Shown here: positions 18,135 through 46,598 of the stretch, piece after piece | Layout of the letters: every line of letters begins with the position of its first letter | How positions within the stretch are numbered: position 1 is the first letter of the stretch | From: Chloroflexota bacterium | GTDB lineage: Bacteria; Chloroflexota; Anaerolineae; Aggregatilineales; J027 | Assembly: GCA_010092845.1 (NCBI GenBank) | Contig: JAADYW010000202.1 | Span: 1 to 53,094 of the forward strand | Direction of reading: 5' to 3' | DNA: 53,094 nucleotides | Position numbers and translations under genes: made by a program | Notes under the pieces: generated by a model | What the model was told of the DNA's origin: nothing | Database searches by the model: none | Seen by the model: only the letters and a program-made list of their open reading frames with translations

Positions 18135-18154
18135 CGGCAAATGGAAATCTCTCT

Positions 18155-21489: not shown

Positions 21490-24400
21490 CTAGCCGCCAC
21501 CTGGCCTGAAGATGTCCGGTGACGCGGTTGGGTTCCGGCAAATCCTCCAGACATCAGCACGCTTTACCAATGGCAACTCACCATAGTTCGCCGCCGCTGC
21601 CCGGCTCTCGCGCTCCGTTCCCGGCGCGAAAACCAACGCCCCACCCCAACGGACAACGGCTGTATCATCCTGTACCTCTGGCTGCACCAGCAGATCGCGC
21701 AAACTGGCGCCGACATACGGCGAGGCGACAGTGTTGAGGAACGCCGCCTCGGTCTGGGGGAAGTCCGCAGCTTCCAGGTCTTCAGCGCAGAAAAGGGACT
21801 GGTACAAACGATAATCACCGCGTGATAGCGCTTGCCAGTAGGCGAAGCCCACGGTTTCAACCGCATTTACGTCATCGGCATCCCCACCTGTCCCACCGAT
21901 AGCCTCGGCTCCGTATGCTGGATCAGGGACAGGCATCAGATTGCCGCTCAACCCCAGCGGCGGGAAGACCACTATCCGCGAGGTCGCGGCATCGGCGACA
22001 TAAATGCGCCCGTCAGGACCGAAGGCGATTCCACCCACCGCCTCGACACCCAAGGGTCCAGCATCGCCCGTGGTCAAGATCATCGGGGCATTGAAGCTGA
22101 TAATTGCATTGCCAGCAAGATCATATGCCACCACCCGGGGGCCATTGTTCGAGTCGCTGGCGTCCATATCAGAGACCAGGATCAATGTACCGTCAGGCGA
22201 AATCGCGATGAAGGGGCGGTGGACAGAATTGCGCGTTCCGGCCCACATATTCACGTCCCAGGCATTGGCGAAGGTACCATCGCGCCGGAACACAGACACT
22301 TGCTGGTTCCAGGTTTCGGCAATATAGACTTCGCCAGATATTGGGTGAACCTGTACTCCGACAGGTTCAGGCTCGTTCTGGAGCCCCTGCCCATCGGCAG
22401 CGATATCACGCAGGAACTGGAAGTCTGGCCCGAAGACCCGGATCCGGTGACCGCCGGTATCAGCAACATAGACATTGCCTTCCCGATCCACATCAACATC
22501 CCGCGGGCCATACATGGCGTTTGGTACGCCATCCGTCGGCCGCCCGAACTGACCAAAGGCGGTCACCATCTCACCCTCAGGCGTGAAGACAACCACCCGA
22601 TGGTTCCAGGTGTCAGCCACATACACATTGCCGTCCACCGGGCTGATGGCAATGCCCCACGGCTCATTCAGCATGCCGCTGCCAATCTCACGTAGCACCG
22701 TTCCATCAGGGGTGAAAACCAGCACCCGATTCTGGCCCGTATCTGCGACATACAGATTACCGGCCGCATCCGTAGCCAGGTCCCGCGGATTGGTCAGGGT
22801 ACCAGACCCAAAGGACTGCAAGGCGGTCAGTTCCGCCTGCACCTGGTCTTCAGGATCAGGAATAAGACGCTGTGCGACGGATTGACCCTCAAGCCCAACA
22901 TCCCAGATCTGGGCAGCAAAATCCTTGCGAACGTAGAAATAGATCTCATCTGAAACCGGCCAGCGCTCGAGATTGAAGCGATCAGCACTCTGCTCGCACT
23001 CGCGGACCACACGCTGAACACAGGCCTGGTCCAGGTCACGCTCTTCCGGTGGTAGCGAAAGCTGCTCAGGCGCATAGCATTCGCCTCCCTGGGTGTTATT
23101 GGGATTCGTGTTCGAGGGGATAACCCGCTCTTCAACACACATCGCCTGGGCATAGGTATTGTAGTCGCGCGACCACCAGATATTCCAGATACCCTCGCGA
23201 TAGAGACTGGCCGGTGGATTTTCCATATCCGGCTCGAAGATCCGGGTAATACGGCCGTAATTCAGGTTGAAGTACTCCTGCATGGGCCACCAGAGGCGAA
23301 AGCCCTCAATGCGGTAGTAATCATTACCGAGCAGGCGCTCGATTTCGGCGTTTTTCTTGTTGCCGACAATTACAGCCAGAGCACCCTCAATCTGGCCCGC
23401 CTGTTCCGCGACCTGGTCAGCTTCGCCATAGATATAGCGTTTGTCCTCAAAGTCCCGGAGGTACCAAAGCATCGGCCAACTGGATTGATCGTCATAGACG
23501 ATATGCACATTGTCGCCTTCGGGGTGGCGAGCGGCAAAATCTTGCAGGTCAACCAGAATATCCTTCACAACGGGACCGCTGTGCGCGTAGACACCGAATT
23601 CAGTGGGATGATCATAGTTAATAAAGGAGAACATCCAGGCCGCACGCGCCGTCAGGCCAGCCAGCAGGATCACCGCCGCCACGAAATATAGCCGCCGGGC
23701 CTGGGCCCAGCCAACCTCCAGGCTCAAGCGCAAGAGGAAATAGCCCGTCACCACGACGGCAAACGCTGCCGCGATCCAGCGCCCAGTCGCAGTCAATTGG
23801 TGCTGTTGCTGACCCTGGAATGGAAGGTCACTGCCGGTAAGGTACGGTAGCATTGCCTCCGCCAGCGCGATGAAGAACACTGGAAGCACAAACAGAAGCA
23901 AAATCCAACCGCTCCGCCGTATGGCCTGCCAGTTCAGTCTCTCAATGACCTGACCTGTATACCAACCGCCCACGAGGATCATTGGTACCGTCAGATGGGT
24001 CGTCAACCACGGCATTTTTTCCCCGGCGATACTAAGACCCACTAGAATCATAATCGTCCAATAGCCGAGCAATTGCAGAAAAGGCACTCCACCCAAGTAC
24101 TCAAAGGGGGCGCGTTCCGCACGCGACCTCTCTTCCTCGGGATCAGATGGTTGGGCCCACACTGGCAATACCATCGCTGAGTCGTAGCCCCAGCCCCTGG
24201 CAAGCTCATCTGAGTCATCCAGGTACTCATCTTCAACATATGTTGAGGAAACGGTATAGGGGACCACATCAGGCGCGTCGTCCGCTACCTGCTCTGTGTC
24301 TGGCGAATCCGGAAGCCCATCCTGTTGCAGTGCTTCAAAGCGCTCATCCGTACCCTGAGCATGATGAGGCTGGCTGAGCCGGTCAACACGTGCTAATCGA

Positions 24401-26412
24401 CTTGCGTGACGATGGTCGTAGAAACGAGATAGACCCACAAAGCCGGCCAATCCAGCCAGAATCATGGGTAGGAATTCGTATACCGGGAGCTGAACTAACA
24501 AATAATAGTATTGAGGTTGGCTCCCACGACGTACATCCTGCTGCTCAAGCCAATACCCGAGTGAGCCAATCAGGCCAGTACCAACACCATCACCGTTGGT
24601 GAAAAACGTGGTGAAGAAGACCACAAACAAGCCACCGAACACAGCCACAGCCAGCGGCCAGATCCGCCAGTTCCAGGACAGTCCCACGACAATACTGACC
24701 ATTAAGAAGGGGATCGCCGCAACTATCGCAGCTTGTATCGTTTCACGTGGTAAGGGCGCCTCGTCGAGCACGTACCCGGCCCAGAAGAGCGGAAAAGCCG
24801 CCAACCAGGGGAAGATCAACGTCCCCATGACAATCAGCATGTCAAAAATTGGTTGACGGTTCATGAACTCCCAGATATTGGTCATCAAACGCGTCACCAG
24901 CACGCCGGCTGTCACGATGCCGCAGAACAACCAGGCAAGCCATATGAAGGTATTATCTTCTTCACTGGCCGCAGCATCGGCATCGTCCGCGGCGGGGTCG
25001 GCGGCAAACGTCTGGCCGGCAATACCCTCGTCCGGTGGATGACTGTGGCGTTCAAAATAGACCAGAACACCAGCGACCATGGTCGCGATAAGCAGAAACG
25101 CCACCACATCCTGCCAACTTGCGCGCTTAACGGCGGCGAGAAGCGCAACCACAAAGACAAGGAGGCCAATAGGGACGAATGCCCACTGGATGAAGTGCAT
25201 CAACTCTGTCTCATTGAGGGTGATCACACCTGTCGGCTGGCCGAACTGGCTCTCAACAACGAAAATCGTTCCCGGTTTTATCAGGTAGAGGACACTCATG
25301 AACCAGAGTGCTATCACACCCCCCAGGATAGCCCCGACGCTCACCAGCATCAGCGTCGAACGCATATTGGCATAGAGCGCATGGGCAACCATGCCCGGCA
25401 GACCGCGTTCCGGACGTCCAGCAGCGGAAAAAGTCCGGACAAAGCCAATGCTTTGCAGGAGCAAGCCAAAAACAATAATGAAGATAAGTTGGAAGACCCG
25501 TACGGAGATATCGTCGGGCAGAAATCCCGCGTCGGTACGGTAGAACTCGTAGTAGATCGCCCCGGTAAGATACCCAAGCACCACCGAAGCGCCCAGCGTG
25601 AATATCTGCCCTACTCCCCATAGCCACAATGGGGCACCGCCAGCAAAAGCCGGACCGGCGAGTGCTTCAGTGCCCGGTGTGACCACATCGTGGTCATCTG
25701 GCTGGTCCGACAATTGCACCTGTCTCTCAACGCGGAACCAGTCCCAATCCTGGATCATGCGCAAAATCCAGTAGAGTGTCAAAAAACTACCGAAGATGGC
25801 AATGTAGATAAAGCCGACCTCTTTGGACGCCAGCATCAAAAGCATTGCGCCGGCCAAGACGGCAATCCACACTGGCCGGCGGGGACGTTCGCCATCAACA
25901 TACTGCAACAGCGCATAGAGCATGATCATTGCAAACAGGATCGTCGGGATATCGTGGCGAATATACCGGCTGTAATAGAGCAACATCGGTGAAATCAGCA
26001 AGCCAACAGATGCCACCAGTGCCCCGGCCCGGCCCAACCAGCGGCGGAACAAAATGGGAAACATCACGATGGCGATGCCTAATAGCGCCGGGTAAAGTCT
26101 TGCGCTAAAGTCATTCGGGCCAAAGAGAAAATAGGAGAACGCGACCGCATGAAAGAGCAGTGGCCCATGCATCAATGGCGTATGATCAAATTGCCCGGAG
26201 TCATAGAGTTCCCAGGAATAGTACGTATGCAGGCTCTCGTCATGACTCATTACCCGCGTACCAAGATCCCAAAACCGAGTCAATATCGCGGCGACGAAGA
26301 TCACCACATATAGGGCGACTTCCCAGTTCAGCGTATATACTCGCGTGAGCACGCGCTCTAGCGGATTATCTTCTTGGGTTGTGGTCGGAACAGTTCGCTC
26401 TATCGTTGCCAT
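21490..26412 (-). CDS. Agl23-like (TIGR03663) membrane glycosyltransferase fused to an NHL beta-propeller and an NTF2-like domain
   Basis: The 1640-aa protein has three parts. The first (about 1-1000) is polytopic and matches the flippase-activity-associated Agl23 family, with the acidic first-loop motif MSHDESLHTYYSWELY and the ISPMLLYYSRYIRHDIP stretch. An internal hydrophilic insert (about 690-770) is acidic. The region from about 1200 to 1475 carries NHL repeats, several times in the form NVYVADTGxHRIRVF or LYVADTGQNRVLVF, so a beta-propeller. The end (about 1510-1635) looks NTF2/SnoaL-like. NHL propellers usually bind proteins or sugars, and here the part after the last helix is probably extracytoplasmic. 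It is the last gene of the large minus-strand cluster, 68 bases after the anti-sigma-like gene. The enzyme activity is inferred from GT-C features. Confidence 0.85.
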   Translation of the reverse strand: MATIERTVPTTTQEDNPLERVLTRVYTLNWEVALYVVIFVAAILTRFWDLGTRVMSHDESLHTYYSWELYDSGQFDHTPLMHGPLLFHAVAFSYFLFGPNDFSARLYPALLGIAIVMFPILFRRWLGRAGALVASVGLLISPMLLYYSRYIRHDIPTILFAMIMLYALLQYVDGERPRRPVWIAVLAGAMLLMLASKEVGFIYIAIFGSFLTLYWILRMIQDWDWFRVERQVQLSDQPDDHDVVTPGTEALAGPAFAGGAPLWLWGVGQIFTLGASVVLGYLTGAIYYEFYRTDAGFLPDDISVRVFQLIFIIVFGLLLQSIGFVRTFSAAGRPERGLPGMVAHALYANMRSTLMLVSVGAILGGVIALWFMSVLYLIKPGTIFVVESQFGQPTGVITLNETELMHFIQWAFVPIGLLVFVVALLAAVKRASWQDVVAFLLIATMVAGVLVYFERHSHPPDEGIAGQTFAADPAADDADAAASEEDNTFIWLAWLFCGIVTAGVLVTRLMTNIWEFMNRQPIFDMLIVMGTLIFPWLAAFPLFWAGYVLDEAPLPRETIQAAIVAAIPFLMVSIVVGLSWNWRIWPLAVAVFGGLFVVFFTTFFTNGDGVGTGLIGSLGYWLEQQDVRRGSQPQYYYLLVQLPVYEFLPMILAGLAGFVGLSRFYDHRHASRLARVDRLSQPHHAQGTDERFEALQQDGLPDSPDTEQVADDAPDVVPYTVSSTYVEDEYLDDSDELARGWGYDSAMVLPVWAQPSDPEEERSRAERAPFEYLGGVPFLQLLGYWTIMILVGLSIAGEKMPWLTTHLTVPMILVGGWYTGQVIERLNWQAIRRSGWILLLFVLPVFFIALAEAMLPYLTGSDLPFQGQQQHQLTATGRWIAAAFAVVVTGYFLLRLSLEVGWAQARRLYFVAAVILLAGLTARAAWMFSFINYDHPTEFGVYAHSGPVVKDILVDLQDFAARHPEGDNVHIVYDDQSSWPMLWYLRDFEDKRYIYGEADQVAEQAGQIEGALAVIVGNKKNAEIERLLGNDYYRIEGFRLWWPMQEYFNLNYGRITRIFEPDMENPPASLYREGIWNIWWSRDYNTYAQAMCVEERVIPSNTNPNNTQGGECYAPEQLSLPPEERDLDQACVQRVVRECEQSADRFNLERWPVSDEIYFYVRKDFAAQIWDVGLEGQSVAQRLIPDPEDQVQAELTALQSFGSGTLTNPRDLATDAAGNLYVADTGQNRVLVFTPDGTVLREIGSGMLNEPWGIAISPVDGNVYVADTWNHRVVVFTPEGEMVTAFGQFGRPTDGVPNAMYGPRDVDVDREGNVYVADTGGHRIRVFGPDFQFLRDIAADGQGLQNEPEPVGVQVHPISGEVYIAETWNQQVSVFRRDGTFANAWDVNMWAGTRNSVHRPFIAISPDGTLILVSDMDASDSNNGPRVVAYDLAGNAIISFNAPMILTTGDAGPLGVEAVGGIAFGPDGRIYVADAATSRIVVFPPLGLSGNLMPVPDPAYGAEAIGGTGGDADDVNAVETVGFAYWQALSRGDYRLYQSLFCAEDLEAADFPQTEAAFLNTVASPYVGASLRDLLVQPEVQDDTAVVRWGGALVFAPGTERESRAAAANYGELPLVKRADVWRICRNPTASPDIFRPGGG

Positions 26413-26480
26413 CTTGTGTCTAACTCTACTGCCTCATCCGGACTATGAAGTCAATAAACCAGCAAAGAAAAAACGTGTCA

Positions 26481-27086: not shown

Positions 27087-27689
27087 TTAACCCAATACCT
27101 CCTCCAGCAACGGGGCGACATTGGCTTCGTCCATCACCTTACGCAGCGCCTGGTGAGCCAATCGGACCCGAGACTCCGCAGTTTTGGGTGGAACATTCAG
27201 CACATCGGCCATCTCGCGGTAAATCAACCCTTGCCCATAACGAAGTGCGATCGCCTCACGCAGACGCGGGGACAGTGACTTTAACGCTTCGCCGAGTAGC
27301 TGATGAGCGGCGCTCCGCATACTGCTCAGCTCCGGATTCTCGCTTTCGGGCGCTGGTGGATCCATTCCGTTGGCCAGCATTTCGCTCAGAGCAACCATTG
27401 GTAGGCGTTTGCGGCGCCGCGCATTCCGGCAGCGGCTAATCGTTATCGTATATAACCAGGTTCGGAAGGCGCCGCGGTTAGGATCGTAGCGTGCCAGATT
27501 GCGGAACACATAGACGAATACCTCCTGCACCACATCCTCGGCGTCCTGCTTGTGCAACAGTACACTATAGGCCAGACGATAGACATCTGGAGCAAAGGCC
27601 TCATACAGGTCTGTATAGGCAATCTGATCCCCGTTCAAGCTCCGCTTGACCAGGGCCATCAATTGGGAGTCGTCAAATGGCGTCTTCAT
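27087..27689 (-). CDS. ECF-type RNA polymerase sigma factor
   Basis: The 200-aa protein has sigma region 2 at 22-95 (AYTDLYEAFAPDVYRLAYSV, DAEDVVQEVFVYVFRNL, FRTWLYTITISRCRN) and region 4 at 130-185 (LKSLSPRLREAIALRYGQGLIYREMADVLNVPPKTAESRVRLA). Regions 1 and 3 are missing, as in all ECF sigmas. An ECF factor directs RNA polymerase to a small set of promoters. It lies inside the glycan gene run, 25 bases after the previous gene and directly against its anti-sigma partner, so self-regulation of this operon is a reasonable guess. No start-proximal Shine-Dalgarno is visible. Confidence 0.94.
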   Translation of the reverse strand: MKTPFDDSQLMALVKRSLNGDQIAYTDLYEAFAPDVYRLAYSVLLHKQDAEDVVQEVFVYVFRNLARYDPNRGAFRTWLYTITISRCRNARRRKRLPMVALSEMLANGMDPPAPESENPELSSMRSAAHQLLGEALKSLSPRLREAIALRYGQGLIYREMADVLNVPPKTAESRVRLAHQALRKVMDEANVAPLLEEVLG

Positions 27690-27714
27690 GATTCAATCTA
27701 CACGGTGGCACGGC

Positions 27715-30024
27715 TCACTGCGTACCCGGCACCTCGCGCACACCGTAAACATCCTTTCGAACCCATAAGGTGACATGCTCATCAAAGTCTGGCTCAAACC
27801 GCGTCTCACGTAGCGTGAGCCAGGAAATCGTATCCGTCCACCGCAACTGAGACAATGACCAGGTTTCACCCAGGACAAAATCCTGACCAATGTAATCGGC
27901 ACCGAGAATCGGCGGGATCTCCGGATCATAAGGTGCAATCACTGCACCAGAATCAACTTCAATCCCCAGACCATCCACGTACTGCACATTGTCAAAACCA
28001 CGCAATGCCCAGGCTAAGGCGCCATCTTCTGGCCCCTGCACCGTTATATCCAACTGGGTGCGGATACCCGCATCCAGATAGGACATCTCCTCGATCTCCC
28101 CGACGAGCAGATCTAGATTGGTCGTAGCGGGGCCAGTCTGCCATAGTTCGCGCGGGTCATCAGCAAATGTCACGCTGGCTTGCCACCCCAACCCGACACC
28201 ATAGATGACGAAGTAGATCAACACCCCAAAGCCCAGGCCCCGCCACGCGGCACGTGCGCCCCAGATGCTACCCGCCAGAAAATAGACAATGACCAGCAAC
28301 ATGATCAAGAAAAACGTAACGAGGATCTGGTAGGTTGGCGTCAACTGGTTGTTGGCCACAATCCGGACGAACGTAATTGCCGAAGTGGCATCAAGCTGAT
28401 AGCCCGGCCATAAATCGCTACCAAACAAGCCGTTCGCTGCCACGTCACCATCAAAAGTCAGAAATGCAAACTGGCCCCGTTGGATGGTATTGTCCGCCTG
28501 CCGCACTTTGGCCAGATAAACTCCGGGACGATCAAATTGAAGAGTTTGGACCAGACCACGCTCACTGTCCGGATATGAATAGGGACCAAATACACCGACT
28601 TGCTCCTCGCCCTCAAGCCGCACAACCTGTAGCACCGGATCGATCGTCGAGTCCAGGCGTTTGATCTGGATGGTTACCGGCTGGGCTGCACCGACAGTCA
28701 GTTCAAACGTGTTTTCACCGGCACTCTGGTCAATCGTTCCGATGCGGGCAGCCGAGGTCAGGTCCTCAGCTGCGATGCGGTGATAGTAGACTGGTAAAGT
28801 TTCACGCTGAACTACACGCCCCAAACGAGTGGCGCTCAGGGCGATGGCTGCCAGGAAAACCGCGGTTGCTACGGCATGCAAGAAGATACCCCAATCCGGA
28901 ACAACCCAATAGCCAATACTCGCGCTGCGCAGCATACGTGCCACAAGCGTTGCCGTTAACCCGGCGGCGGGAACGGTTAGCCACAGTGCAGCACTGGCGG
29001 TGGCACCCACATAGAGCAAACCCATCACTACGCCCCAAACAAACCAACCCGCCAGAAACCGGCTGACGAAATCCCCCTCGGACAGGGCAAAATAGAGCCC
29101 GACCAACCCAAGCAGTATCAATCCCAGATCGTAGCGAACCGCGACAGCCAGAGCAAACGCGCTGGTAGCTCCGGGCTGTCGCTCGCCGATTCCTTGAGCG
29201 AACTCATAGAGACTGTTGCCAACCGCCGACAGACCATCAGGCGTGGAGAAGAAGCCAGTTCCGATCACAAGCACCGCAACGAACGCTGCCAACAGACCAT
29301 CACGCCAGGGCCAATCCTTGAGTGTCTCGCCCAGAATCGTCACGGGATGTGACTCATGATCGTCATCGCGATTGCTGCGCCATAGCGCCATCATTAGCCC
29401 CGCCAACAGACCAGCCACAGTGATCACGCCCGTAGGCTCGACCAGCACCAACAACATGACGAGAACAACTGTTGCTGCGATGCCATCGCTTTGCTGACGG
29501 CGTTCAACGAAGCGCATGACCAACCAGACTGCAATAAAAACCAGTACCATGGTCCATGTCACCGCACCCATGGTGCGGGCGGATGCCAGCGCCACTGACG
29601 AAACACCAAGCAGGATAGCCATCACCAATGCGGTGGACGCTCCCAGGTAACGCCGCCAGAGAAGTGGCCCCCAAACCATACTGGCTCCCACTACCGCAGT
29701 CGGCAGCCGGGCCAGAGTATCACTTGTACCTGCCAGAAAGAAGAGAAACTGATTCGCAAAGGCCATCAGCGGATTGTTGGCGATGAGAGGTTCGTCACTA
29801 CTGATACTATCATCAACCCGCTGCAAAGCCGCCAATGCTTCGTGAGCCTGCCGGTCATCCAGTGGAACGGCATCTAAGGCCAATACACGCAAGATCAGCG
29901 CCAGCACAAACAGGCCGATGTATGCAAGGACTTCCAGCGAAACCCGGAAGTTGATTTCGGCCAATGGTGCTACTGGCGAATCTGATTGCTGGGCAGAGGT
30001 CTCTGACTGGTACGGAATCTCCAT
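27715..30024 (-). CDS. Polytopic membrane protein, GT39/GT-C-like, with extracytoplasmic beta domain
   Basis: The protein of about 769 aa has some 12 membrane helices. After the first helix comes LDAVPLDDRQAHEALAAL, an acidic first-loop motif like that of GT-C transferases. Later there is a predicted beta domain (SAGENTFELTVGAAQPVTIQIKRLDS..., about 450-560) between helices, probably outside the membrane. The C-terminal 130 residues are also outside. I chose ATG 30024 (MEIPYQSETS), because the longer frame from 30084 runs into the end of the previous gene. The gap to that gene is 14 bases. The sugar donor and acceptor are unknown. Confidence 0.8.
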   Translation of the reverse strand: MEIPYQSETSAQQSDSPVAPLAEINFRVSLEVLAYIGLFVLALILRVLALDAVPLDDRQAHEALAALQRVDDSISSDEPLIANNPLMAFANQFLFFLAGTSDTLARLPTAVVGASMVWGPLLWRRYLGASTALVMAILLGVSSVALASARTMGAVTWTMVLVFIAVWLVMRFVERRQQSDGIAATVVLVMLLVLVEPTGVITVAGLLAGLMMALWRSNRDDDHESHPVTILGETLKDWPWRDGLLAAFVAVLVIGTGFFSTPDGLSAVGNSLYEFAQGIGERQPGATSAFALAVAVRYDLGLILLGLVGLYFALSEGDFVSRFLAGWFVWGVVMGLLYVGATASAALWLTVPAAGLTATLVARMLRSASIGYWVVPDWGIFLHAVATAVFLAAIALSATRLGRVVQRETLPVYYHRIAAEDLTSAARIGTIDQSAGENTFELTVGAAQPVTIQIKRLDSTIDPVLQVVRLEGEEQVGVFGPYSYPDSERGLVQTLQFDRPGVYLAKVRQADNTIQRGQFAFLTFDGDVAANGLFGSDLWPGYQLDATSAITFVRIVANNQLTPTYQILVTFFLIMLLVIVYFLAGSIWGARAAWRGLGFGVLIYFVIYGVGLGWQASVTFADDPRELWQTGPATTNLDLLVGEIEEMSYLDAGIRTQLDITVQGPEDGALAWALRGFDNVQYVDGLGIEVDSGAVIAPYDPEIPPILGADYIGQDFVLGETWSLSQLRWTDTISWLTLRETRFEPDFDEHVTLWVRKDVYGVREVPGTQ

Positions 30025-30038
30025 CACGTATGTGCGCC

Positions 30039-33000: not shown

Positions 33001-33236
33001 GCCGGGAGCAAACGGAATAGCAGTGGAAAAACCGCCACCCCTGCCAGCGTCACCAATAGCCACCAGGAGAACACTTCCGCGCCTTCATCTGCCAACCACT
33101 TGCGGGCAGCCTCCTGGCTGGACAACGTACTGACCAGGAAGCCGAAGAAGACAACAGGCAGCAGCCAGATTGCCCACAGGCCAGGGATCGGTTTCGCCGG
33201 TTGAGAATTCGTTTCTGCCCGCATCGGTTCATTCAC
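30039..33236 (-). CDS. Chlor_Arch_YYY (DUF2298) membrane protein
   Basis: The 1065-aa protein has about 18 hydrophobic segments and the family signature: FINGVRNSATFPPQDPWLSGYAISYYYFGYVMTASLADLS. It ends with a hydrophilic extracytoplasmic region (TPAEYAVMQCL ... GIPTVLGWDNHERQWRGL ... YGIDYIVVGEAE). DUF2298 proteins are thought to be GT-C-type sugar transferases or flippase-associated proteins but none is well studied. It is clearly related to residues 1330-2383 of the upstream neighbour, sharing LPDRG(F/Y), FPPxDPW, YYY(W/F)GYV and GLPTVLGW. It starts at GTG 33236 (ATG 33224 is an alternative), 3 bases after the neighbour's stop. Confidence 0.88.
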   Translation of the reverse strand: MNEPMRAETNSQPAKPIPGLWAIWLLPVVFFGFLVSTLSSQEAARKWLADEGAEVFSWWLLVTLAGVAVFPLLFRLLPALPDRGYSLARTAGLLLVGVVFWFLASIGLLQNAPESMALAWMLVLMASILAWTNWTDRPSWAEVAGWLREQTPLIVVTEVLFLVAFVAWAYVQAHNPEIHSTEKPMEMAFINGVRNSATFPPQDPWLSGYAISYYYFGYVMTASLADLSAVPTGMAFNLVTALLFALTATGAFGVGYNLVRGSGPLKRWRTGNQHAALGTGLLAATFVVLSGNLGTVLIELPYNGYTSDTPVLDSVVDREYFDYWDVVLRSRFYEPVAATGGRTVRLLDTGETMPFDPQQLDNLGYVRLPDRDSDNIPNWNDDRFSLRDDAGFWWWFRYSRVIRDRDLAGQHAEPTPIAEVPSFSFILTDNHPHVLGLPFTLLMIGLAIGLALRRDPLQLWEIIVYGILVGGMIFANAWDAVYLVVIVAAEALRRLVRNGTGKLTGWDRLIRVVSLQTRVEQNILLAGPVFLAVLVLILLLGVGDINSGFWPLDLLLQIAIAAVVAVPATLIVNWLLDDSDWAGIARLAIGLLVVFYLFYLPWLESFSSQASGFYPNIIHPTKYQQFFLQFGIFGLLIAPLIIREALRGGSRINWVLVWTIVFVALFIILTIPVLSAIFINWQCPLEGGENWGQVDSWNEWSCQARGSLFGNYDNSNVTALAGEVLVRRFTALPTQLLALLAIGIITMRFFARPPRESQGDSREPLNFSPATGVALLIIAAGLVAAIMPDVVYLRDNFSTRINTVFKLYYQAWVLLSIGSAYAFYSILSGPNTRYAERPRLAAPSALVGRWLYAVGGVVLLTGGLLYPFFAVPQRAIHETDRSRVRACEDRGEEECDEERPLTLDGSDTLVWAGRNWSITPAEYAVMQCLAEKEPRKSDAILVEATGGGYTPELGRFSMYTGIPTVLGWDNHERQWRGLEGFFQTIDGNARIADVERLYSLLPDQWSETERIIRKYGIDYIVVGEAEIRRYSTEGASLTPNLAKFDQLLDPVCQEGNVAVYRVSPE

Positions 33237-33239
33237 CCA

Positions 33240-36200: not shown

Positions 36201-39200
36201 AACGCTACTGGCAAACCAGGCCACCCAGGCCACGAGCAACCAACCGACCAGCTTGGCCAGTGCAAAACCACGATCTGGCAAAGCGGTGAATATCAGATCC
36301 ATTAACGGCAGCGTGATCCAACCCACAGCCAGCATCAGCAGCCACCAGATCGCTACACTTGCTACCTGGTTGTCATTGATTAACGCCCCACGGTCAAACA
36401 ATTGGGACCAAGTGCCGTTCTCCTCCTGGGTCGCGCGCTGGTCTTCGGTGAACTGAAGGGCAGTCGGGCTTTTAGAGGCTGGCACCGCACTCCAGGCGTT
36501 AATCCGGTTCACCGGCTGGGTATCCAAGCGGAAGGGGTCTGCCTGCTGCACCGCCCGAATATTGACAGCGTTCAGTATCGCCTCAGCTTTTTCAGGAGAG
36601 TAGGCCTCGGTTTTGCGGAAGATGAACACCGCCGGAGAATCATAGACGTGGAAAGCCTCTTCAGCCTCGAATTCATTCAGCCAATCCGGCAAGTCATCCG
36701 AAGGCAGGACCTGGTTCTTCCATTCGACGGGACCAAGCTCAGGATAGGAAGTGAAGGTTTCGACCAGCTCAAAGCCCAACTCGCCCGAGAAAAGCGCCTC
36801 ATAGTACCGGTTGCTCATCGGCCAGCGTGCCGGAATGCGGTTGAAGGAATCGTAGAACCGGTTACTGCCGATCACGATGTAGTCGGTCTGGTACAGAACG
36901 TCGAGGATATTCTGGCGCTTCTCGGGAACATCATCCCAGGACATGTTGAACTGCAAGCCAATGTAGTAACCGCTATAGAGATTCATCCCTGGCGTCTCAA
37001 GTGTACAGAGGCCCGAGGACAAGTCGTCGCTATAGAACATGCCATCCGGCACAGGGCAGACCTTGGTCGGCATCGGGTCATCCCACTCACCCTCCCAGGC
37101 GACGGCATACCCGGCAATACCCAGGAGATCCTCTGGCGCAACCGTAATGGTATACTGTCGTCCAGCCTCAACCGGGAACGGCTCATCCAGCTCGATATAC
37201 GCAGCTGGGCCGAACAGCAGATGCCCATCATTCGCAGTATTGAAATCGCCAGTGACCTGGCCTTCAACCGAGCGCATCGTCGAGTCGGCATAGCGGTTAT
37301 CGCGTAGTATCAAGCGCAACGTCTCAGAATCGGCATCACCCAGCGGATCACTGAGATGGGGAATGACGATGCGCCGGATTTCACCATCCATATTCGCCCG
37401 GAAGTCGAAGTCGGTCAGTGTGCCGGGGTTGAAATAGGCGACATCACGATAGCCTCGCGGTAGCTCAACATTGCGCTCCTCGAAGGATGGCGCATTCCCG
37501 TTATTAGGATCCTGATAATACACGGTGAGGTGGCTTGGGTTTGGGGGCAAGACCGGGTCGCTGACATTGCGAGAAAGGGCAACTGGTCCCCCCTCCAGAA
37601 CTTCAAGTTCCAGGTAGAAGCTACGCTGCATGCCAGGCTGGTTCGTGACCAACAACGGAATCGCCGGATTAAACGAGAGGGTATATTCTGCACCAAAATC
37701 GCTGGTAACGGCGGCCAGATCGGTTTCCAGGGTCTGCGCACCCAATAGGATGTCACCATCGACAGGATCTTCGGCCCAGACGCGTACCTGCAGACGCTCT
37801 ACCGCCTCGTCCTTCGCGGGATCGCCAAGGCGGTGCAATGTGACGCTTTGGAGGTTGAGCGAGGTCGTGGGGGCGATATTGACGCGCAACGGATCGCCAT
37901 GCGTCAATTGCACGATTTCAGGATTCAACCCCGACGACCAGACAATCGCGCTGACCATGCGCTCACGACCATCGCCTGCTTCGATGAAAAGCCCCATGTC
38001 ACCAGGTACGAATTCCTGCATATAGCGGCTGGCGGCCACGCGGGTCAGCTGTTGGCCATAGACATTGGTTGTCCCCAGACCATAGGCCACCGTATGGCCG
38101 ATGACCAGCAGCATCAGGAGGCCGGATGCTGCCAGCCCAACGCGCCGCGTCATGACACGGGGTTTGCTTCGCCAGAGCCGGTAGGTCGTACGTAGCGTCT
38201 CGACCAATGCCCAGGCTGCGAAAACTGCTAACATACCATACAGGGGCAGGAAGTATCGCATCGTGGTCACCCACCGCATCCCTAACCAGCCAAAGTAGAC
38301 CAGGATCCAGGCGGCCGGAATGGCTAGACGTGTCCAGCCAGGCCCGGCGCGTGCGATTCGCACAAGCGCCCAGGCAAATGCCAGCCAGGCAACGAGCCCC
38401 AGCGGCAACCCGAGACCATATAGGACGATATTCTGGAGAGGGAACATCCAGGGGATTCGATCCGTCCATTGCCAGTTGGGTGGAATTCCAACCTCCCCTG
38501 AGGTTAGCCGGCGGGCTTCGTTGATATCGGCAGTCCAGCCCTCGTTAATCTCAAGCCCGAGCACTGACGGTCCCACGAACGCATGGGGTTGCAGAAAGCG
38601 AAAAGCCAGCAATGCAGCAACCCCTGCCAGGAATACACCAGCGACCAGCCGGGTGTATTGGAAGTTGCGCTCGAAGCGGAAGACACGCCAATCAAATAGT
38701 GGCAGGGTCCGCAGGAGCAATGCCAGCAGCAACACACCGACTAGTGGCGCCAGATTTACGCGGCTGGCCATCGCGGCCCCAAATGCCAACCCGAAGCCGA
38801 CTTCATCATGCAGACCAAAATAGGCCGGGCCACCAAGCAGCGCCGCCAATCCGATCGCAACGACCAAACCCCACAGCGACACGGTACCGATCGCAAACGC
38901 CAGGGCCGCCCAGAAAAAGAGCGCAGGGAGGGCCGCGATAGTGAGCCAACCGAGCGTAGACAAGCGGTCAGCACGATAGCGGAGGGCGGAGGCCAACAGA
39001 CCCACACCCGTGAAGCCCAGCAGATAAGCCATCAAGGGACTGAGGTCCGGGCCGGTGTTATAATTGGCCAGCGAATCGTAGATCCACAGCCCAAATGGCG
39101 CCACAAGCCAGTGAAACGTCCCTGCATAGGCGGCGTACTGATCCCAGCCGGCGAACCAGAAGCCCAGCAAGATCACCGCCGCCACACCCGCCACCAGCAG

Positions 39201-40391
39201 TCCCAGACCGCTGACTGCACCAAAAATCGTGCCGGCAGCCAAACCGACAAACGCCAGCAGCAGACTCCCCAGTGCCACCGGCAACGACTTCTGTTCAGAT
39301 GCCAATGTTATCAGGGCGCCGATTACCAGAAAGAACAGCAAATAAGCGGCAATCGACTCCAGATAGGCGGCGTCGGTACGTTCCAGATCCCACAGCCATA
39401 TGACAAGGGCGGCTGTGACCCAGGGTAAGGGGTTAAAGCGCTGTGTGAATCGCCCGGCTCCATCCAACACCCGAACCGCGAAGTAGATGGCGAGCACCGT
39501 CCAGAAAGCGCTATAGGCGTCGGCTGTCCAGAAATGGCTCTGCTGGATAGGGAATACCGCGAAGGCGTATAAGGCCGCCGCCAGCAAGCCAGGCCAACGG
39601 CCTACCAAGCGCGCACCTATCAGAAAGACGAGCAGAATCGTCAGAGTGTCGGCCACCGAACTCATGGTCCGGCCTACCAGACGAATGCTGGAGTAGCAGG
39701 TCCACGTCGGATTATCTAGCTGGGCGTACGTCTCGGCGAGAACTCGGACAGTGAATACTGGGAATTCACCATAAACAAAAATCGTCGATTTGACGTTGTT
39801 CGGGTTCAGGTCAGAGCACCGCGCGTCGAAATAACCCCCTTTGCCTGCGCTTCGGAGTGCCCGCGAGCGCTCTTCATCCGACATCGCGTTCAGCTCTTCT
39901 TGCGAGGGCAGGGGATACTCAGCATTACAATATGCCGCTTGCTCCTCTGCGGATGCCCACGGTCGGCCTGTAAAGGGCATAGCGCTACCAGGGGAGTTGA
40001 CCAGGCTGGCAACCTCTGTCAAGAAACGCTCATCAGGATGCAGGTGGGTATAGTCGTCCCAATTACGGCCGTAGGCCCGCAGCCCATAGCCAATCCCAAC
40101 CAGCGCCAGCAGAATCACGGCGGTGATGACGTCACGCCAGGGAGGCCTGAAGCGACGCCAGTCCTGCATCAACCAGCCCAGACTTGGCCGTGGCGGCCCA
40201 GCAGATGACGTGTCCGTCTCGCCAGCGAAAGCGGAACGCACGACCAGCGGCGGCGTGGCCTGCTCCTCGCGCGGGGGCAGGTCAGTGGCATCCGAAGTTG
40301 GATCGTCAGGATGATACGTCGCCGCACCCGGTTCTAGATTTGACGCGTTCTCATCAGATGATGGCTGATTGTCGAAGCGGAAATCACTCAT
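33240..40391 (-). CDS. Giant two-module membrane protein: GT39/GT-C half fused to a Chlor_Arch_YYY (DUF2298) half
   Basis: This single uninterrupted 2383-aa frame falls into two halves. Residues 1-95 are acidic and cytosolic. About 100-750 form a GT-C-like core with the acidic loop motif [16 protein letters not shown]. About 770-1290 are a large hydrophilic, mostly beta extracytoplasmic region. From about 1330 a second polytopic module begins, with [14 protein letters not shown] and then [33 protein letters not shown], the DUF2298 signature. The end ([26 protein letters not shown]) parallels the separate 1065-aa gene just downstream. I read it as a tandem duplication of a YYY gene in which one copy fused to an upstream GT39-like gene. 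The role is likely sugar transfer to a surface glycan; substrate unknown. Confidence 0.87.
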   Translation of the reverse strand: [2383 protein letters not shown]

Positions 40392-40439
40392 TATCCACGA
40401 TCACTCAAATAGCGACTAATTGAAATTGACCTGAATGTA

Positions 40440-43265
40440 TCAACGTGGCCCCGGCACGCAATTGGTTATACACCCCAACTCTGCCGTTTCCGTAGTAGCC
40501 CAACTAGCCAGCCAATTCCACCCTGCTGGCGCTTCGTAGACCACGAAATTCTCGTCATCAGGCACGACAATATGACGGAATTGACCGCCCGGGAAGTTGG
40601 TCTCCAGGAAATTCTGTGAATACAGATCCGTTTCATAAACATAGAAGAGTAGCGGCTTCTCAGGATCATAGGCGTAAGCCGTGCCTTCGTTTTGCATAAT
40701 GAACTGGTAGACATGATCGACTTCGACCAGCCCATTCGGCCAGTTGAAATCGCCCGCTACGCTGCCCAGGATGCGGTGGTCCAGCCAGTGCACCCGGTGC
40801 ACATAGAAGGCATTGCCGAAACTGCCCCGCCCCTCAGCAAAGTCCTTGAGCGGCGCCGCAATCTGGCGATACGGACGCCAGGTATAGGCATATCCTTCCT
40901 GGTAGGTCTCAAAATAGGCATCATAGTTGGGACGCGCAGCATCATATACAAAGAATGCAACCATCAGGGTTGCAATGCCAAAATACGCCCGCTGCCCATA
41001 ACCAGCCTCAACGATTTGCCGCGCCAGCATGCCAAGTGGAAACGCTGCCATCAAGAAGACGAATACCAGGGTCCCACTGATACGGGTGAAGGATGGATTC
41101 TCGTCCAGATAAGGGGCAATCGCCAGTGCACTGGGGAGGATCATGACCAATAAGCCCACGGGAATCACAGCCAGTGCAATGTCACGCCGTTTCGCCAATA
41201 AGAGCAACCATCCCAGCAGACCCAGCAGATAGAGTGCTGCAGTGCGGGAATCGAGCGCCGGGTAACCGCCCCCGTTCGTAATCCACTGGCCATCACCTTC
41301 CCATATGTAGCTGGTAAAGGCATCCCAATAGTTCGCGCGAATGGCTTCATAGCCTGTCATATCCGTATCAGGACCGTAGCCTGACTCGGTCAGTAGATCG
41401 AGGACTTCGGGAATCGAGGGAGGGCAGAATTCGCCTGGGTCATCTGGACAGTTCGTATCGACCTTGTCGCCGAACATGCGTCCATAGGTACGATTCCAGA
41501 ACTCGCGGGGAAACTCTTGCGAGTAGCGATACATTGGCAGATAGACGACGATGGCAATCACCCCTGTCATCAGGAGATGAGTGCTATAACGCCACACGGG
41601 ATAGGGGCGCCAGCGTGTCTTGAACACAATGGCCAGGCCAATCCCGATGACGACCACAATCGGTAGCATGCGGTTCGCCTGGTAGAAATAAGTTCCTGCA
41701 CCGAGCACCAGCCCTAACCAGATGAAATCGGCGCGCCGGTTGTAACGTATGGCCCGCACCAGAAAATAAACAACCAGCAAAACCGTCAGCGGCGTCAGAA
41801 CAATCCGCAAACCCAGGCGTGAGAGCAAGGTGTGCCAGGAACTGATCGCCATAAGAGCCGCCATTGACAGCCCAACCCAATCCCCCAATCGATCGTCTTC
41901 CTCTGTCTCGCGACCAACGACCTCTTTAGCGACCCAATACGACAAGAAGACCGTCAGCAGTCCTTCGATAATTGTTGCGTATTTGAGGGCGTCGAAATTG
42001 AAACCCACCCCCATCCAATCAGCGATCGCCGCCACGACGTACATCTGGAAGGCTTCGCGTCCACCATTATTGGGGAAGAAAACCGCGTAGTTTCCGTTAT
42101 CGACCTTAACCGCATCAATAAGTTTCTCGATATGATCACTGGTCATCTCTGGTGGCACCTCAGAGAAGCTGTCGGTCCGAAAATAGAAGGCCACCAGCAT
42201 GACTGCCAGCAGAGCCAGGTATGTCCAGCGCCATCGGAAGCGTGGCATCTGGATCTCCAGCGCTGCGTCTACAGATTGCCGTTCAATGAACAAGCGGCGA
42301 TAAAGCTGGTTGAGATCTAGCGCGAAGATGATTCCCCATAGCGCAATCGCGATGAACCACGCGAAAACACCGGCCGTGGTGAGTTCAATGCCTGCGACTT
42401 CGCCGCTGACATCCGTCCTGACATTGCGGTCATACGCTAGCCAGGAGAGCAATAGCGCCACCGGCACCAGAAACAGATTCATCGAGTGGTTTTCCGCCCA
42501 GGCAAAGACGGATCGCGTTGTCAACGAGAAACCACCCCGCTGCGTAGCGGGGGCGCTTGTCTCCGCCGTGACATCCTGTTCACCCGGAGACGTATCGAGT
42601 ACATCACCGGACGGGTCGCCCAGCAGCCGTTCCATCTGACGGGACCACCATTCGCGTGAGCGAATGTACATATAGGAGACAAACGTCAGCCCGGCCAACA
42701 CCAGCCAGAACTCACTCCCATCCAGGTTGTTCTGCTCGCGCTTGACGGGGTCAAGCGCAGCATCACGAAGGATATTGGCCCCAACCAGTGCAAATATGAT
42801 CGCAAACAGCAATAGCAGCGCCAGGCCAGCCTTCTCACGATCGAACCGTATGTAGCGGGCGAAAGCGGCGCTCAGCGCGCGTCCAGCGCCCCAGCTATTG
42901 TCATAGGTGGCATCGCCCGTTACAGTTGTTCGCTGGTATACGCCTCTGCCGTCGTACTCTGCGTCAGGGGTCGTATCCTCATCCCAATCCGATCCACCCT
43001 GTGATTTGGTCTTGTCATCTCCGAATGGCTCAAGTTCGCGGTCGGCATTGATGATGATTCGGAACAGCTCCCGCGATACGCGCCCGGGCCGGTAGATCAA
43101 TAGCCCCACTGCCTGCGCGAGTGTCAAGTCTTCGAATACGAAGTCACGCTCTGCAGCGCTATGTTGGTTGGCAGCAGACTCATCAGCTCCTATGTCCCCT
43201 TCAAAGGTCGACGACTCGTCCCTGAAGGGTTCTTCTTCAAATGCATCCGACGGATATTCGTTCAT
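40440..43265 (-). CDS. GT39-like polytopic membrane glycosyltransferase
   Basis: The 941-aa protein has a long, acidic N-terminal cytosolic region (1-150), two helices, another polar stretch (about 215-265), and then a GT-C-like core of about 12 helices. The core opens with FYFRTDSFSEVPPEMTSDHIEKLIDA, which places acidic residues in the first outer loop. A later outer loop contains VLDLLTESGYGPDTDMTGYEAIRANYWDAFTSYIWEGDGQWIT. The last 170 residues are extracytoplasmic. It lies 11 bases after the methyltransferase gene and 48 bases before the giant fusion gene. It probably transfers a sugar from a polyprenyl-phosphate donor; no substrate can be named. Confidence 0.82.
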   Translation of the reverse strand: MNEYPSDAFEEEPFRDESSTFEGDIGADESAANQHSAAERDFVFEDLTLAQAVGLLIYRPGRVSRELFRIIINADRELEPFGDDKTKSQGGSDWDEDTTPDAEYDGRGVYQRTTVTGDATYDNSWGAGRALSAAFARYIRFDREKAGLALLLLFAIIFALVGANILRDAALDPVKREQNNLDGSEFWLVLAGLTFVSYMYIRSREWWSRQMERLLGDPSGDVLDTSPGEQDVTAETSAPATQRGGFSLTTRSVFAWAENHSMNLFLVPVALLLSWLAYDRNVRTDVSGEVAGIELTTAGVFAWFIAIALWGIIFALDLNQLYRRLFIERQSVDAALEIQMPRFRWRWTYLALLAVMLVAFYFRTDSFSEVPPEMTSDHIEKLIDAVKVDNGNYAVFFPNNGGREAFQMYVVAAIADWMGVGFNFDALKYATIIEGLLTVFLSYWVAKEVVGRETEEDDRLGDWVGLSMAALMAISSWHTLLSRLGLRIVLTPLTVLLVVYFLVRAIRYNRRADFIWLGLVLGAGTYFYQANRMLPIVVVIGIGLAIVFKTRWRPYPVWRYSTHLLMTGVIAIVVYLPMYRYSQEFPREFWNRTYGRMFGDKVDTNCPDDPGEFCPPSIPEVLDLLTESGYGPDTDMTGYEAIRANYWDAFTSYIWEGDGQWITNGGGYPALDSRTAALYLLGLLGWLLLLAKRRDIALAVIPVGLLVMILPSALAIAPYLDENPSFTRISGTLVFVFLMAAFPLGMLARQIVEAGYGQRAYFGIATLMVAFFVYDAARPNYDAYFETYQEGYAYTWRPYRQIAAPLKDFAEGRGSFGNAFYVHRVHWLDHRILGSVAGDFNWPNGLVEVDHVYQFIMQNEGTAYAYDPEKPLLFYVYETDLYSQNFLETNFPGGQFRHIVVPDDENFVVYEAPAGWNWLASWATTETAELGCITNCVPGPR

Positions 43266-43276
43266 ACAGCCAGACT

Positions 43277-44140
43277 CTAAGTAGCAGGTTTACGAGCTTT
43301 GACACACAAGTTTACCGTACTCCGGTCAAGGGGTTCATCCATTCGATTGGGCTTATCGAACAGATTCAGAATCGCCAGCCCCAGATTGATCGGATTCAGC
43401 AAGCTGCCCGAGTTCTTATCAAACGTAGTACGATCCGCGGCATTTGCCATCTTCGCAGGCAGGAAACCGCCTTCCAGCAGGGGTTTACCCAGGCCATAGA
43501 CCAGGTTATGGATAAACGGAAAACTCCAATGGGTAAATGCGCGTTCGGCTTCGATCACCAATCCAGCCCTGGTAACCGGCATCCGGAGGTCCGGCCAAGT
43601 ATACAAGCGGACATGATTGGCCCATATGCCGGCCAATGGCCCAGAGCGAATCTTGCGATTGAATAGCGTTTCCAGCGCTTTGTTGATTGGATCCCACAAG
43701 AAAGGATAGTTGGCATTGGGAACCGTGATCGCCACTACACCACCTGGCTTCAGGACCCGGTATACCTCGCGCAGGGCCTGATCATCATCATCGACATGCT
43801 CCAGGATTTCGCTCAGGATCACGCCATGGAAAAAACCATCCGGGAACGGCAGGTGGTACAAATTGCCACGGACGATCGTCACATCGGGAAGATGCCCAAC
43901 ATTGGCATATGCCTTGTGAGCAATGGGTGCATCCAATTCCAGGCCAACCAACTTGACATTGCTCACATAGCGGTAATAGTTGAGGTAGAAGCCACGCCCG
44001 CAGCCACCGTCCAGGATCACCGCCTCGGTGTCGTCTGGTGGAGGGATCCACTCGAATATCGTGCGCACACGTCGTTTGAAAGCCATATCGGCTTCATTGC
44101 GCGTCAGGTGAGCGATGGTCGTTTCATCAACGGCTGCCAT
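43277..44140 (-). CDS. Class I SAM-dependent methyltransferase
   Basis: The 287-aa protein has motif I VILDGGCGRGFYLNYY (41-56), then LVGLELDAPIAHKAY, GVILSEILEHVDDDDQALREVYRVLKPGGVVAITVPNANYP (methyltransf_11-type). A C-terminal part probably specific to its acceptor follows. ATG 44140 is preceded by GGAGAGGG about 5 bases upstream and overlaps the end of the glycosyltransferase gene by 14 bases, so the two are translationally coupled. The open frame reaches 44356, but that extra part is read in another frame over the GT4 gene. In glycan clusters such enzymes often methylate sugars or lipid heads; that is inference here. Confidence 0.88.
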   Translation of the reverse strand: MAAVDETTIAHLTRNEADMAFKRRVRTIFEWIPPPDDTEAVILDGGCGRGFYLNYYRYVSNVKLVGLELDAPIAHKAYANVGHLPDVTIVRGNLYHLPFPDGFFHGVILSEILEHVDDDDQALREVYRVLKPGGVVAITVPNANYPFLWDPINKALETLFNRKIRSGPLAGIWANHVRLYTWPDLRMPVTRAGLVIEAERAFTHWSFPFIHNLVYGLGKPLLEGGFLPAKMANAADRTTFDKNSGSLLNPINLGLAILNLFDKPNRMDEPLDRSTVNLCVKARKPAT

Positions 44141-45329
44141 GTGGCCCTCTCCAATGCCGTGATGCAACCGCTGCCGCGCGGAAGTGTTTTTCGTAGCGCT
44201 GAACTGTCTGATCAAAACTGAAGATCTGGCCGATTTCCTCAGCAGAGCGATGGTAGTCCTCCGGGGTTTGCAAGACATCGATAACCGCCTGCCCGATCGC
44301 CTGCCAGTCGCCACGCGGCACAATCTTGCCCATGCCTGTCTCACGAACGGGCACACGTCCGCCGGGGGTGTCGGTCATCACGACCGGGGTTCCGCATAGC
44401 ATCGCCTCAACCTGCACCAGCGCGAAACACTCCGTATCGCTAGGCAATACCAATACATCGCACGCAGCGTAGAAATTGGCCATGGCCTGCGCGCTGCTGA
44501 TCAGCCCCAGGAAGATCAATTGCTCGTTGAAGCGCTGCACTAACGGTTGGTTTTTCTCCCAGGTATCCTCGTACTGGATGTCGTACTCCCCGGCGAAGAC
44601 GATGCGCGCGTTAGGATAACGCTCGTTAATCTTCTCGAGCGAACGGATCAGTAGATCTGGGCGTTTTTCCGCGACAAAGCGACCTGCGTAGCCGATGATG
44701 GGTCCGTCTTCATGTTGCCAGCGCGCCCGCAATTCAGCGACCCGCTCTGGCTCAGGGTCAGGGATCTGGATCGGCGGATAAATGATCGATACTTTATCGC
44801 GGAAGGGCTTCAAGTAGTAACTATGGTTGGCATAGTCATGACTATAGCCGATGACCCGGTGTGCATAGCGCGCCATATAGGCATAGAGGCGGAACACAAA
44901 CCACTCGATGAAGCGGTTGAAAGCCCCCGCCGGCAACACGAGGTCGCCGTGATGCGTTGCCACCAGGCCACGCCCTGTTAACCGGGCCAAAACGGCCGTG
45001 AGCGCCGTTTCCAGCATGGGAAGATGCAACCACACTGCATCATGTTGACGGAGCAACCCCCACATCGACCAGGGATAGGCTGGCGCGACCATCCCGCGGC
45101 TCACGCGGATAGGCGCCCACAAGCGGACAATACGCACACCGTTAATCACTTCATCGCGTGGCAGATCAATCCGGTGCCGAGCCGTCAAAACGGTAACCTG
45201 GTGCCCCAGCGCGACGAGACCTTCGGCCACGCGCTGCACATAAAGCGAATAGCCGGTGCGGTGGGGCAAGTAGTATTGAAGCGCGATAAGCAGACGCAAG
45301 GGTTGCGGAGACGTGTCTTTAGCGTTCAC
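44127..45329 (-). CDS. Glycosyltransferase family 4 protein
   Basis: The 400-aa protein is a GT-B-fold retaining transferase. The N-terminal half has LLIALQYYLPHRTGYSLYVQRVAEGLVALGHQVTVLTARH. The C-terminal half has IIGYAGRFVAEKRPDLLIRSL, the usual nucleotide-sugar binding region, and DTECFALVQVEAMLCGTPVVMTD with the E-x7-E motif. No membrane segment is seen, so it works at the cytoplasmic face, building a lipid-linked or other precursor that the large membrane proteins could use later. It starts at GTG 45329, three bases after the flippase-like gene's stop, and overlaps the next gene by 14 bases. Confidence 0.92.
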   Translation of the reverse strand: MNAKDTSPQPLRLLIALQYYLPHRTGYSLYVQRVAEGLVALGHQVTVLTARHRIDLPRDEVINGVRIVRLWAPIRVSRGMVAPAYPWSMWGLLRQHDAVWLHLPMLETALTAVLARLTGRGLVATHHGDLVLPAGAFNRFIEWFVFRLYAYMARYAHRVIGYSHDYANHSYYLKPFRDKVSIIYPPIQIPDPEPERVAELRARWQHEDGPIIGYAGRFVAEKRPDLLIRSLEKINERYPNARIVFAGEYDIQYEDTWEKNQPLVQRFNEQLIFLGLISSAQAMANFYAACDVLVLPSDTECFALVQVEAMLCGTPVVMTDTPGGRVPVRETGMGKIVPRGDWQAIGQAVIDVLQTPEDYHRSAEEIGQIFSFDQTVQRYEKHFRAAAVASRHWRGPHGSR

Positions 45330-45332
45330 AGT

Positions 45333-46418
45333 TTACGAAACACTTTCCTGTGCAATTGAACGTGGCTGAGCTGAGGCCTCAGTTGACGACTCTTCGGCAA
45401 ACGACTTGGCCCCGTGGGTAATTTGACGCACCGATGCGTGTTCAACCACCAGGCCAACCAGTCCAAGCGTAATATATATGGCAAGTGTCAGGGCATGCAA
45501 CACGACCCCAAGCGCCACCGCCGGGGCGTTTTCTGGTGGTGAGGCAGAAGCGACCATGCCGCCAATCCACAGCCCGCCAACCACCGCGCCTTCAAACGGG
45601 CCGAGGTTACCGGGGACCGCAGGTAATGCCACCGAGAGTGTCGCCAGAACGATCAGAGAGACTGTTGCCGCCAATGTGGGGCTGTCGAATAGCATGAACA
45701 GTATAATGTAGCCAGCGGCCAACGAAAACGCCCAGGAAACAACTGTCCACAACAATGCCCCTACAGCAATTCTCGGCTGGCCCATAGGCTGGACACCTTC
45801 AATGAAATGCTGTAACCGGGCCTGATGATCAAAGCGCTCGAGAAGTGGGAAGCGCTGAAGCATCCAACGTAGGACGGTGAGCGCCCAGGCCGGCTTCAGG
45901 GCGAGCGCCGCCAGCGCTAAACTCGCCAACAGCGCCATCATCGAGACCACGGCGCCAGCCGAGGTCACTTCGCTAGGCACATCCAGTAGCAATAACATCA
46001 ACCCAATCATCGCAATCAACGCCAGCAGATCAAGGAGGCGCTCGATGACAATCGTACTGATCGCCGTAAAAGCCGCAACTGGGGGCTCGAGTCGGGTTGT
46101 CATATAAGCGCGCGCGACATCGCCCAGACGCAAGGGAACCAGACTGCTCAGGAAGTAGCCAACGTTCAAGATGTGAAAGCTATGCCAGATACTCAGCCGC
46201 TGGTCCGTCAGGACATGCCAGCGCATGGCCCGTGTCAGAAGACCGGCAACCAGCAATCCCCCTGCCGGCAGCAGGTAGACATAGCGCGCTTGGGTTAGCT
46301 CATCGTGTACTGCCCCCAGGTCATCGCCGATCAAAACATAGATGATGGCAACACTGATAGCTGGCCCGAGAGCCAGGGTTAGCCATTTTTTCATAGCGAA
46401 GAAAACCCGTTTCTCCAT
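45333..46418 (-). CDS. LPG-synthase-TM/UPF0104 family membrane protein, flippase-like
   Basis: The protein of about 361 aa has some eight helices. Family features are AMRWHVLTDQRLSIWHSFHILNVGYFLSSLVPLRLGDVARAY near the N-terminus and LPAVPGNLGPFEGAVVGGLW near the C-terminus, as in UPF0104 proteins including AglD of archaeal glycosylation. As the first gene of the glycan run it may help to move or handle a lipid-linked sugar. The start is uncertain: the frame is open to 46466, but a promoter -10 (46435-46440) overlaps that part, leaving ATG 46418 or ATG 46394 as candidates; neither has a strong Shine-Dalgarno. A related protein is at 6329-7480. Confidence 0.82.
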   Translation of the reverse strand: MEKRVFFAMKKWLTLALGPAISVAIIYVLIGDDLGAVHDELTQARYVYLLPAGGLLVAGLLTRAMRWHVLTDQRLSIWHSFHILNVGYFLSSLVPLRLGDVARAYMTTRLEPPVAAFTAISTIVIERLLDLLALIAMIGLMLLLLDVPSEVTSAGAVVSMMALLASLALAALALKPAWALTVLRWMLQRFPLLERFDHQARLQHFIEGVQPMGQPRIAVGALLWTVVSWAFSLAAGYIILFMLFDSPTLAATVSLIVLATLSVALPAVPGNLGPFEGAVVGGLWIGGMVASASPPENAPAVALGVVLHALTLAIYITLGLVGLVVEHASVRQITHGAKSFAEESSTEASAQPRSIAQESVS

Positions 46419-46434
46419 CAAGAATCGACGCGCC

Positions 46435-46462
46435 ATTATAGCAGAGCCTAATCCTATGTACA
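46435..46462 (-). promoter_or_regulatory. Candidate promoter of the ten-gene glycan operon
   Basis: On the minus strand a perfect TATAAT (46435-46440) follows TGTACA (46457-46462) after 16 bases. The -35 matches four of six consensus bases. It lies just before the first gene of the run. Confidence 0.55.
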
Positions 46463-46598
46463 CCATGCGGCTACCAAATGCTGACTCTACGGCACCAGTG
46501 ATGGCCTAGAGCAATCAGGCTATCGGAGCCGGGCCAAACACAATTGGCAAGATGGGGAAATCACCACTTGTCGCAGGGGAATAACCCGTAGGCGCAGG

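Follow-up and report, generated by a model that had tools for sequence, protein, structure and literature searches.

The window, a 53,094-nucleotide stretch of a Chloroflexota genome (contig JAADYW010000202.1), contains ten densely packed open reading frames (ORFs) at positions 21490-46466, all on the minus strand and read in the order g10-g9-g8-g7-g6-g5-g4-g3 (sigma)-g2 (anti-sigma)-g1 (Table 1). Families were assigned to the ten genes by domain searches, including Pfam and NCBIfam, with curated cut-offs. The intergenic gaps across the cluster are 0-68 bases, and g4 and g5 overlap by 46 bases only if g4 is given its TTG start. The ORF of g8 opens at 44356, and a start at 44140, which produces a 14-base overlap, is favoured; the real start of g10 is probably 46394 or 46418.

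Table 1. Genes of the cluster, promoter sites and nearby genes in the window.
Feature	Position	Strand	Basis or remark
g10, flippase-like LPG_synthase_TM / TIGR00374 protein	45333-46466	-	PF03706 E 1.5e-37; TIGR00374 71.6 bits vs cut-off 43.2
g9, GT4 glycosyltransferase	44127-45329	-	PF00534 E 9.5e-30
g8, class I SAM methyltransferase	43277-44140	-	PF08241 E 1.1e-19
g7, 941-aa GT-C-like membrane protein, no family	40440-43265	-	no NCBIfam match; PMT_2 weak only
g6, 2383-aa fusion of N-terminal GT-C-like half and C-terminal YYY/DUF2298	33240-40391	-	TIGR03662 464 bits; PF10060 E 1.5e-101
g5, 1065-aa YYY/DUF2298 protein, predicted GT-C-like fold	30039-33236	-	TIGR03662 395 bits
g4, 789-aa short TIGR03663-like membrane protein	27715-30084	-	71 bits, under cut-off 126
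g3, ECF sigma factor	27087-27689	-	PF04542 E 4.9e-21; PF08281 E 1.3e-10
g2, membrane anti-sigma factor, one TM helix	26481-27086	-	weak family matches: zf-HC2 E 0.013, PRK13920 E 3e-6
g1, 1640-aa Agl23-type TIGR03663 protein with NHL propeller	21490-26412	-	TIGR03663 231 bits; NHL E 2.8e-34
Housekeeping-like extended -10, TGCTATAAT	46435-46443	-	before g10; read in sequence
P_g10, weak candidate site	46455-46486	-	10.9 bits, under 12.3 (99% background level)
P_g6, ECF-type site ACTACGGAAAC-GGCAGAGTTGG-GGTGTATAAC	40465-40496	-	before g6, in g7 3' end; 17.5 bits
Sigma-proximal promoter remnant	27695-27726	-	-10 GTGTAG kept, -35 lost; 6.2 bits
Malic enzyme fused to phosphate acetyl/butyryl transferase domain	8385-10637	-	
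DUF2142-like membrane protein	16368-18140	-	under cut-off; adjoins DUF3417/phosphorylase gene
TIR and FHA domain protein	19680-20915	+	just downstream of cluster, opposite strand
Single-domain response regulator	46599-46958	-	upstream of cluster
GAF-domain protein	48997-49893	-	upstream of cluster
Ser/Thr kinase with PDZ domain	50023-51522	+	upstream of cluster

The sigma pair and the membrane proteins

The sigma factor (200 aa) matches regions 2 and 4 above the cut-offs, with no match to region 3, and the solved chains closest to it include SigW and SigE. Its partner, g2, falls below the PF13490 cut-off and is placed as an ortholog of anti-sigma relatives through position and similarity. Outside the window's family (f1), all five anti-sigma orthologs tested (from families f2, f3, f4, f5, and f8) pass PF13490, and the H-x3-C-x2-C zinc motif is found in 11 of the 11 listed; it is absent from the window's anti-sigma factor and the other f1 proteins shown. 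Judging from these proteins, family f1 has lost its anti-sigma zinc ligands. About half of class I anti-sigma factors (ASDI) carry this motif, which is not obligatory, and zinc-free members are known (PMC7406223). Each of the listed anti-sigma factors has one helix and a tail of 62-105 aa composed of 28-39% Pro/Ser/Thr, and none of the tails that were scanned matched a Pfam domain.

The pair resembles ECF sigma factors of the SigW/RsiW type with their ASDI partners in that the sigma factor has regions 2 and 4 only, the anti-sigma gene is adjacent, the orthologs in the cluster have H-x3-C-x2-C and one TM helix, and, in most genomes compared from the order, an ECF-like promoter motif lies ahead of the sigma factor's own gene. 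It differs from them in its predicted targets, which form a YYY/Agl23-type glycan cluster, in the short anti-sigma tail, which is rich in Pro/Ser/Thr and has no known sensor domain, and, within the window's family, in lacking the zinc ligands. Literature searches on this sigma group returned nothing relevant.

Among the putative glycan enzymes, the YYY/DUF2298 and TIGR03663 families consist of very large, conserved membrane proteins, for whose bacterial members almost no functional data were found in the literature. Against cut-offs of 300.25 bits for TIGR03662/DUF2298 and 126.25 bits for TIGR03663, g5 and g6 both pass the former, and g1 passes the latter while g4 stays under it. The original prediction regarded both groups as having no well-established function. 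This stands for DUF2298, for which literature searches found nothing relevant, but only in part for TIGR03663, which NCBIfam names 'flippase activity-associated protein Agl23': Agl23 of Haloarcula hispanica rescues a yeast rft1 deletion and has in-vitro flipping activity on lipid-linked oligosaccharide (PMC11182771), so TIGR03663 is not wholly without function. The link between g1 and that protein goes through the NCBI naming, and the published flipping activity belongs to the archaeal protein only (PMC11182771), whereas g1 is bacterial and has an extra NHL propeller and an NTF2-like end.

PDB sequence searches with g5 and g7 yielded nothing usable. In Foldseek, the AlphaFold model of g7 (mean pLDDT 75) matched only GT-C enzymes at E ≤ 0.001, and the result for the g5 model (pLDDT 77) was weak. 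With VIA-align, rows 1-27 for the g5 model were GT-C enzymes or domains thereof (Z 7.7-13.4; next row 5.4), the partners being STT3, AftA, DPY19, ArnT, AglB, and PglB, and the C-terminal globular domain of g5 aligned with that of AglB (3vu0) at Z 11.0 and an rmsd of 2.9 Å over 119 residues. The g5 and g7 models thus share the fold of the GT-C glycosyltransferases (STT3/AglB/PglB, AftA, ArnT, Pmt), but identity is only ~10-14%, similarity in fold does not demonstrate activity, and the family of g5 and g6 has no assigned function in the records searched. The predicted folds suggest that the YYY/DUF2298 proteins and g7 are GT-C-like, and that DUF2298 proteins are GT-C enzymes is a testable prediction. 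There is a conserved TSDH..E motif in g7, and an HPDE motif was read by eye in the N-terminal half of g6. Invariant acidic motifs are candidates for a part in sugar transfer from a polyprenyl-phosphate donor. It is on these families and predicted folds that the proposed glycan role of the cluster rests.

Conservation of gene order and of an ECF-type motif

Searches covered 41 genomes, 34 of which supplied merged regions for comparison with the window. Within the limits of the contigs, families f1-f5 of the order share the arrangement g10-g9-g8-g7-g6-g5-g4-sigma-anti-g1 (34 regions and the window), with g10 homologs at the head of the cluster in f1, f2, f4, and f5. Being conserved across families, the arrangement of the ten genes is not due to chance. 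In family f8 the sigma-anti-g1 block stands alone and the YYY genes lie at other loci, which makes g1 the most constant neighbour of the sigma pair; blocks of the cluster are also found at separate loci in G021 and other genomes. A second sample comprised 80 further named Anaerolineae loci, partly from the same genomes. There, a g1 homolog comes after sigma in 77/77 readable loci, and a g4 homolog lies ahead of sigma in 66 of 75. Elsewhere in Anaerolineae, in families f42 and f60 of other orders, sigma adjoins a long TIGR03663 gene, and one genome (G300) retains g10-g9-g7-g6-g5-g4-sigma.

Upstream of sigma lies an ECF-type motif, TGAGGA(A/T) followed by GTGTA 14-16 bases past TGAGGA, in which the TGA is often the stop codon of g4. 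A two-block matrix was trained on 20 strict sites, all of them upstream of sigma and none elsewhere, and used with a threshold of 17 bits; random 280-bp pieces gave 16.9 bits at the 99.9% level and 12.3 at the 99% level. Intact or near-intact sites of at least 17 bits precede sigma in 29 of 35 genomes (training sites included) and in 50 of 60 held-out loci absent from training. Without refitting, the same sigma-trained matrix also marks the upstreams of g6 (11/19) and g10 (3/6); the g5 and g4 upstreams have one match each, and no site was found upstream of g9, g8, g7, anti-sigma, or g1. When the sigma upstreams are excluded, the operon strand has 21 matches of at least 17 bits and the opposite strand has 2, and reversed sequence gave none. 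A whole-genome pattern scan returned 50 matches versus 7 for the reversed-pattern control.

Away from the cluster, the recurring matches precede separate homologs of g10 (G026, G028, G029, and G031) and separate g6 genes (G037 and G036); several other non-cluster matches fall inside coding frames and were counted as chance. The g6 site is present in G036, and no sigma gene was found in its 84% complete assembly. Two sigma-less genomes, G038 and G244 (two only), retain the cluster without canonical motif sites, G244 having one 17.7-bit match inside g6 with an unusual spacer. Outside the order, no such motif was seen before sigma in Anaerolineae. Single matches occur upstream of argF-like, ABC transporter, and DedA-like genes (L185, G019:C13; L174, G035:C42; L182, G015:C390), which may be chance or further regulon members, and G022 has an additional match ~575 bases past the sigma start, in or after sigma and 35 bases before the anti-sigma ORF.

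In family f1 the strict TGAGGA pattern was not found before sigma: one genus of the family has TGAGGGA, and the window's genus is without the -35. The sigma gene of the window's genus is intact, although the promoter site next to it has decayed in both genomes (9.2 bits in G001). P_g6, scored by a matrix trained only on the sigma sites of other genomes, is the only strong site in the window, P_g10 scoring less than the 99% background level; the 3.86-Mb genome contains a single GGAAAC-N11..13-GTGTATA, the one at P_g6.

Probable control of the cluster by its sigma factor

We consider it highly likely that the locus is a membrane-coupled surface-glycan assembly pathway with its own ECF sigma/class I anti-sigma switch, and this surface-sugar machinery is very probably turned on by the switch. 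Much of the original prediction was borne out: all ten packed ORFs are present in conserved order, with the ECF sigma gene abutting that of a one-helix anti-sigma factor, the gene-order comparison did not meet the sigma pair elsewhere in most genomes, and the proposed shared promoter motif was found before sigma, g6, and g10. Since the sigma pair stays with the cluster and the ECF-type motif is shared, self-regulation of the glycan-assembly cluster is well supported for the order, as predicted from sequence; the accompanying notion of a single 25-kb transcript was not supported as stated, since the motif marks three starts. On the same evidence, with the motif marking g6 and g10 even when they lie apart and no canonical sites in the two sigma-less genomes, the cluster is a three-unit regulon (g10-g9-g8-g7, g6-g5-g4, and sigma-anti-g1) rather than just a single 25-kb transcript.

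In the proposed mechanism, the N-terminal domain of the anti-sigma factor would hold sigma at the membrane until an extracytoplasmic condition led to loss of the anti-sigma factor; release by an outside signal, as originally suggested, is an inference. The freed sigma factor would then guide RNA polymerase to TGAGGA-N14..16-GTGTA promoters, raising sigma, anti-sigma, and the Agl23-type g1, the giant YYY/GT-C proteins g6-g5-g4, and g10-g9-g8-g7, whose products would take sugars off lipid-phosphate donors on the outer side of the membrane and attach them to a surface polymer or glycoprotein. With the sigma-proximal promoter decayed, control in the window's genus probably runs mainly via the g6 promoter; sigma is probably produced there by transcription that reads through from P_g6, and in the window's organism g10-g7 may be expressed constitutively.

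The dense packing of the genes, the extended -10 before g10, and the likely read-through into sigma in the window's genus would all suit a constitutive 25-kb operon, in which a housekeeping promoter before g10 drives the ten genes, with the sigma pair as a passenger. We regard this as quite unlikely, because, throughout the order, g10, g6, and sigma have motif sites of their own and because the blocks lie apart from one another in f8, G021, and others. The single ~25-kb transcript of the original prediction was likewise rejected as a full account, because other genomes, f8 among them, have the three blocks apart and each block retains the motif. It is very unlikely that the sigma pair has only inherited its place beside the cluster and acts on distant genes, for example a general envelope-stress regulon: sigma factors often have wider regulons and a few off-cluster intergenic matches do precede unrelated genes, but the recurring ones precede g10 and g6 homologs, and g6 and g10 are picked out by a motif derived from sigma sites.

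The motif itself could be read as a translation or mRNA element, TGAGGA looking like a stop codon plus a Shine-Dalgarno-like GAGGA, or as a housekeeping promoter, its -10 being sometimes GTGTATAAT. However, in most genomes it sits tens of bases upstream of the start codon, the distance from TGAGGA to GTGTA is fixed at 14-16 bases, the invariant part is GTGTA and not TATAAT, and the motif is limited to three of ten gene starts and lacking in sigma-less genomes, all of which makes either reading exceedingly improbable compared with an ECF promoter.

A sigma factor with a readable motif indicates which genes act together (flippase-like, GT4, methyltransferase, GT-C, YYY, and Agl23-type) and offers a single handle for switching the entire pathway. 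As a speculative extension, which we think improbable though conceivable, the anti-sigma factor might sense the output of the pathway: its Pro/Ser/Thr-rich extracytoplasmic tail would be glycosylated or occupied by products of the operon, and upon a shortfall in glycosylation the bare tail would be cut and sigma freed. If true, this reading of the tail would place a YYY/Agl23-type glycosylation system under feedback from its own product.

At E ≤ 1e-45, sigma orthologs were found, among 301 sampled genomes of the phylum, only in the window's genome and in one from its own order, and nearly all Anaerolineae have TIGR03663 (265 of 298 sampled genomes). This distribution fits, without proving, a sigma switch that was a later addition to an older pathway. 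In two genomes (G015:C157 and G213:C32), two long TIGR03663 genes, not one, lie by the sigma pair.
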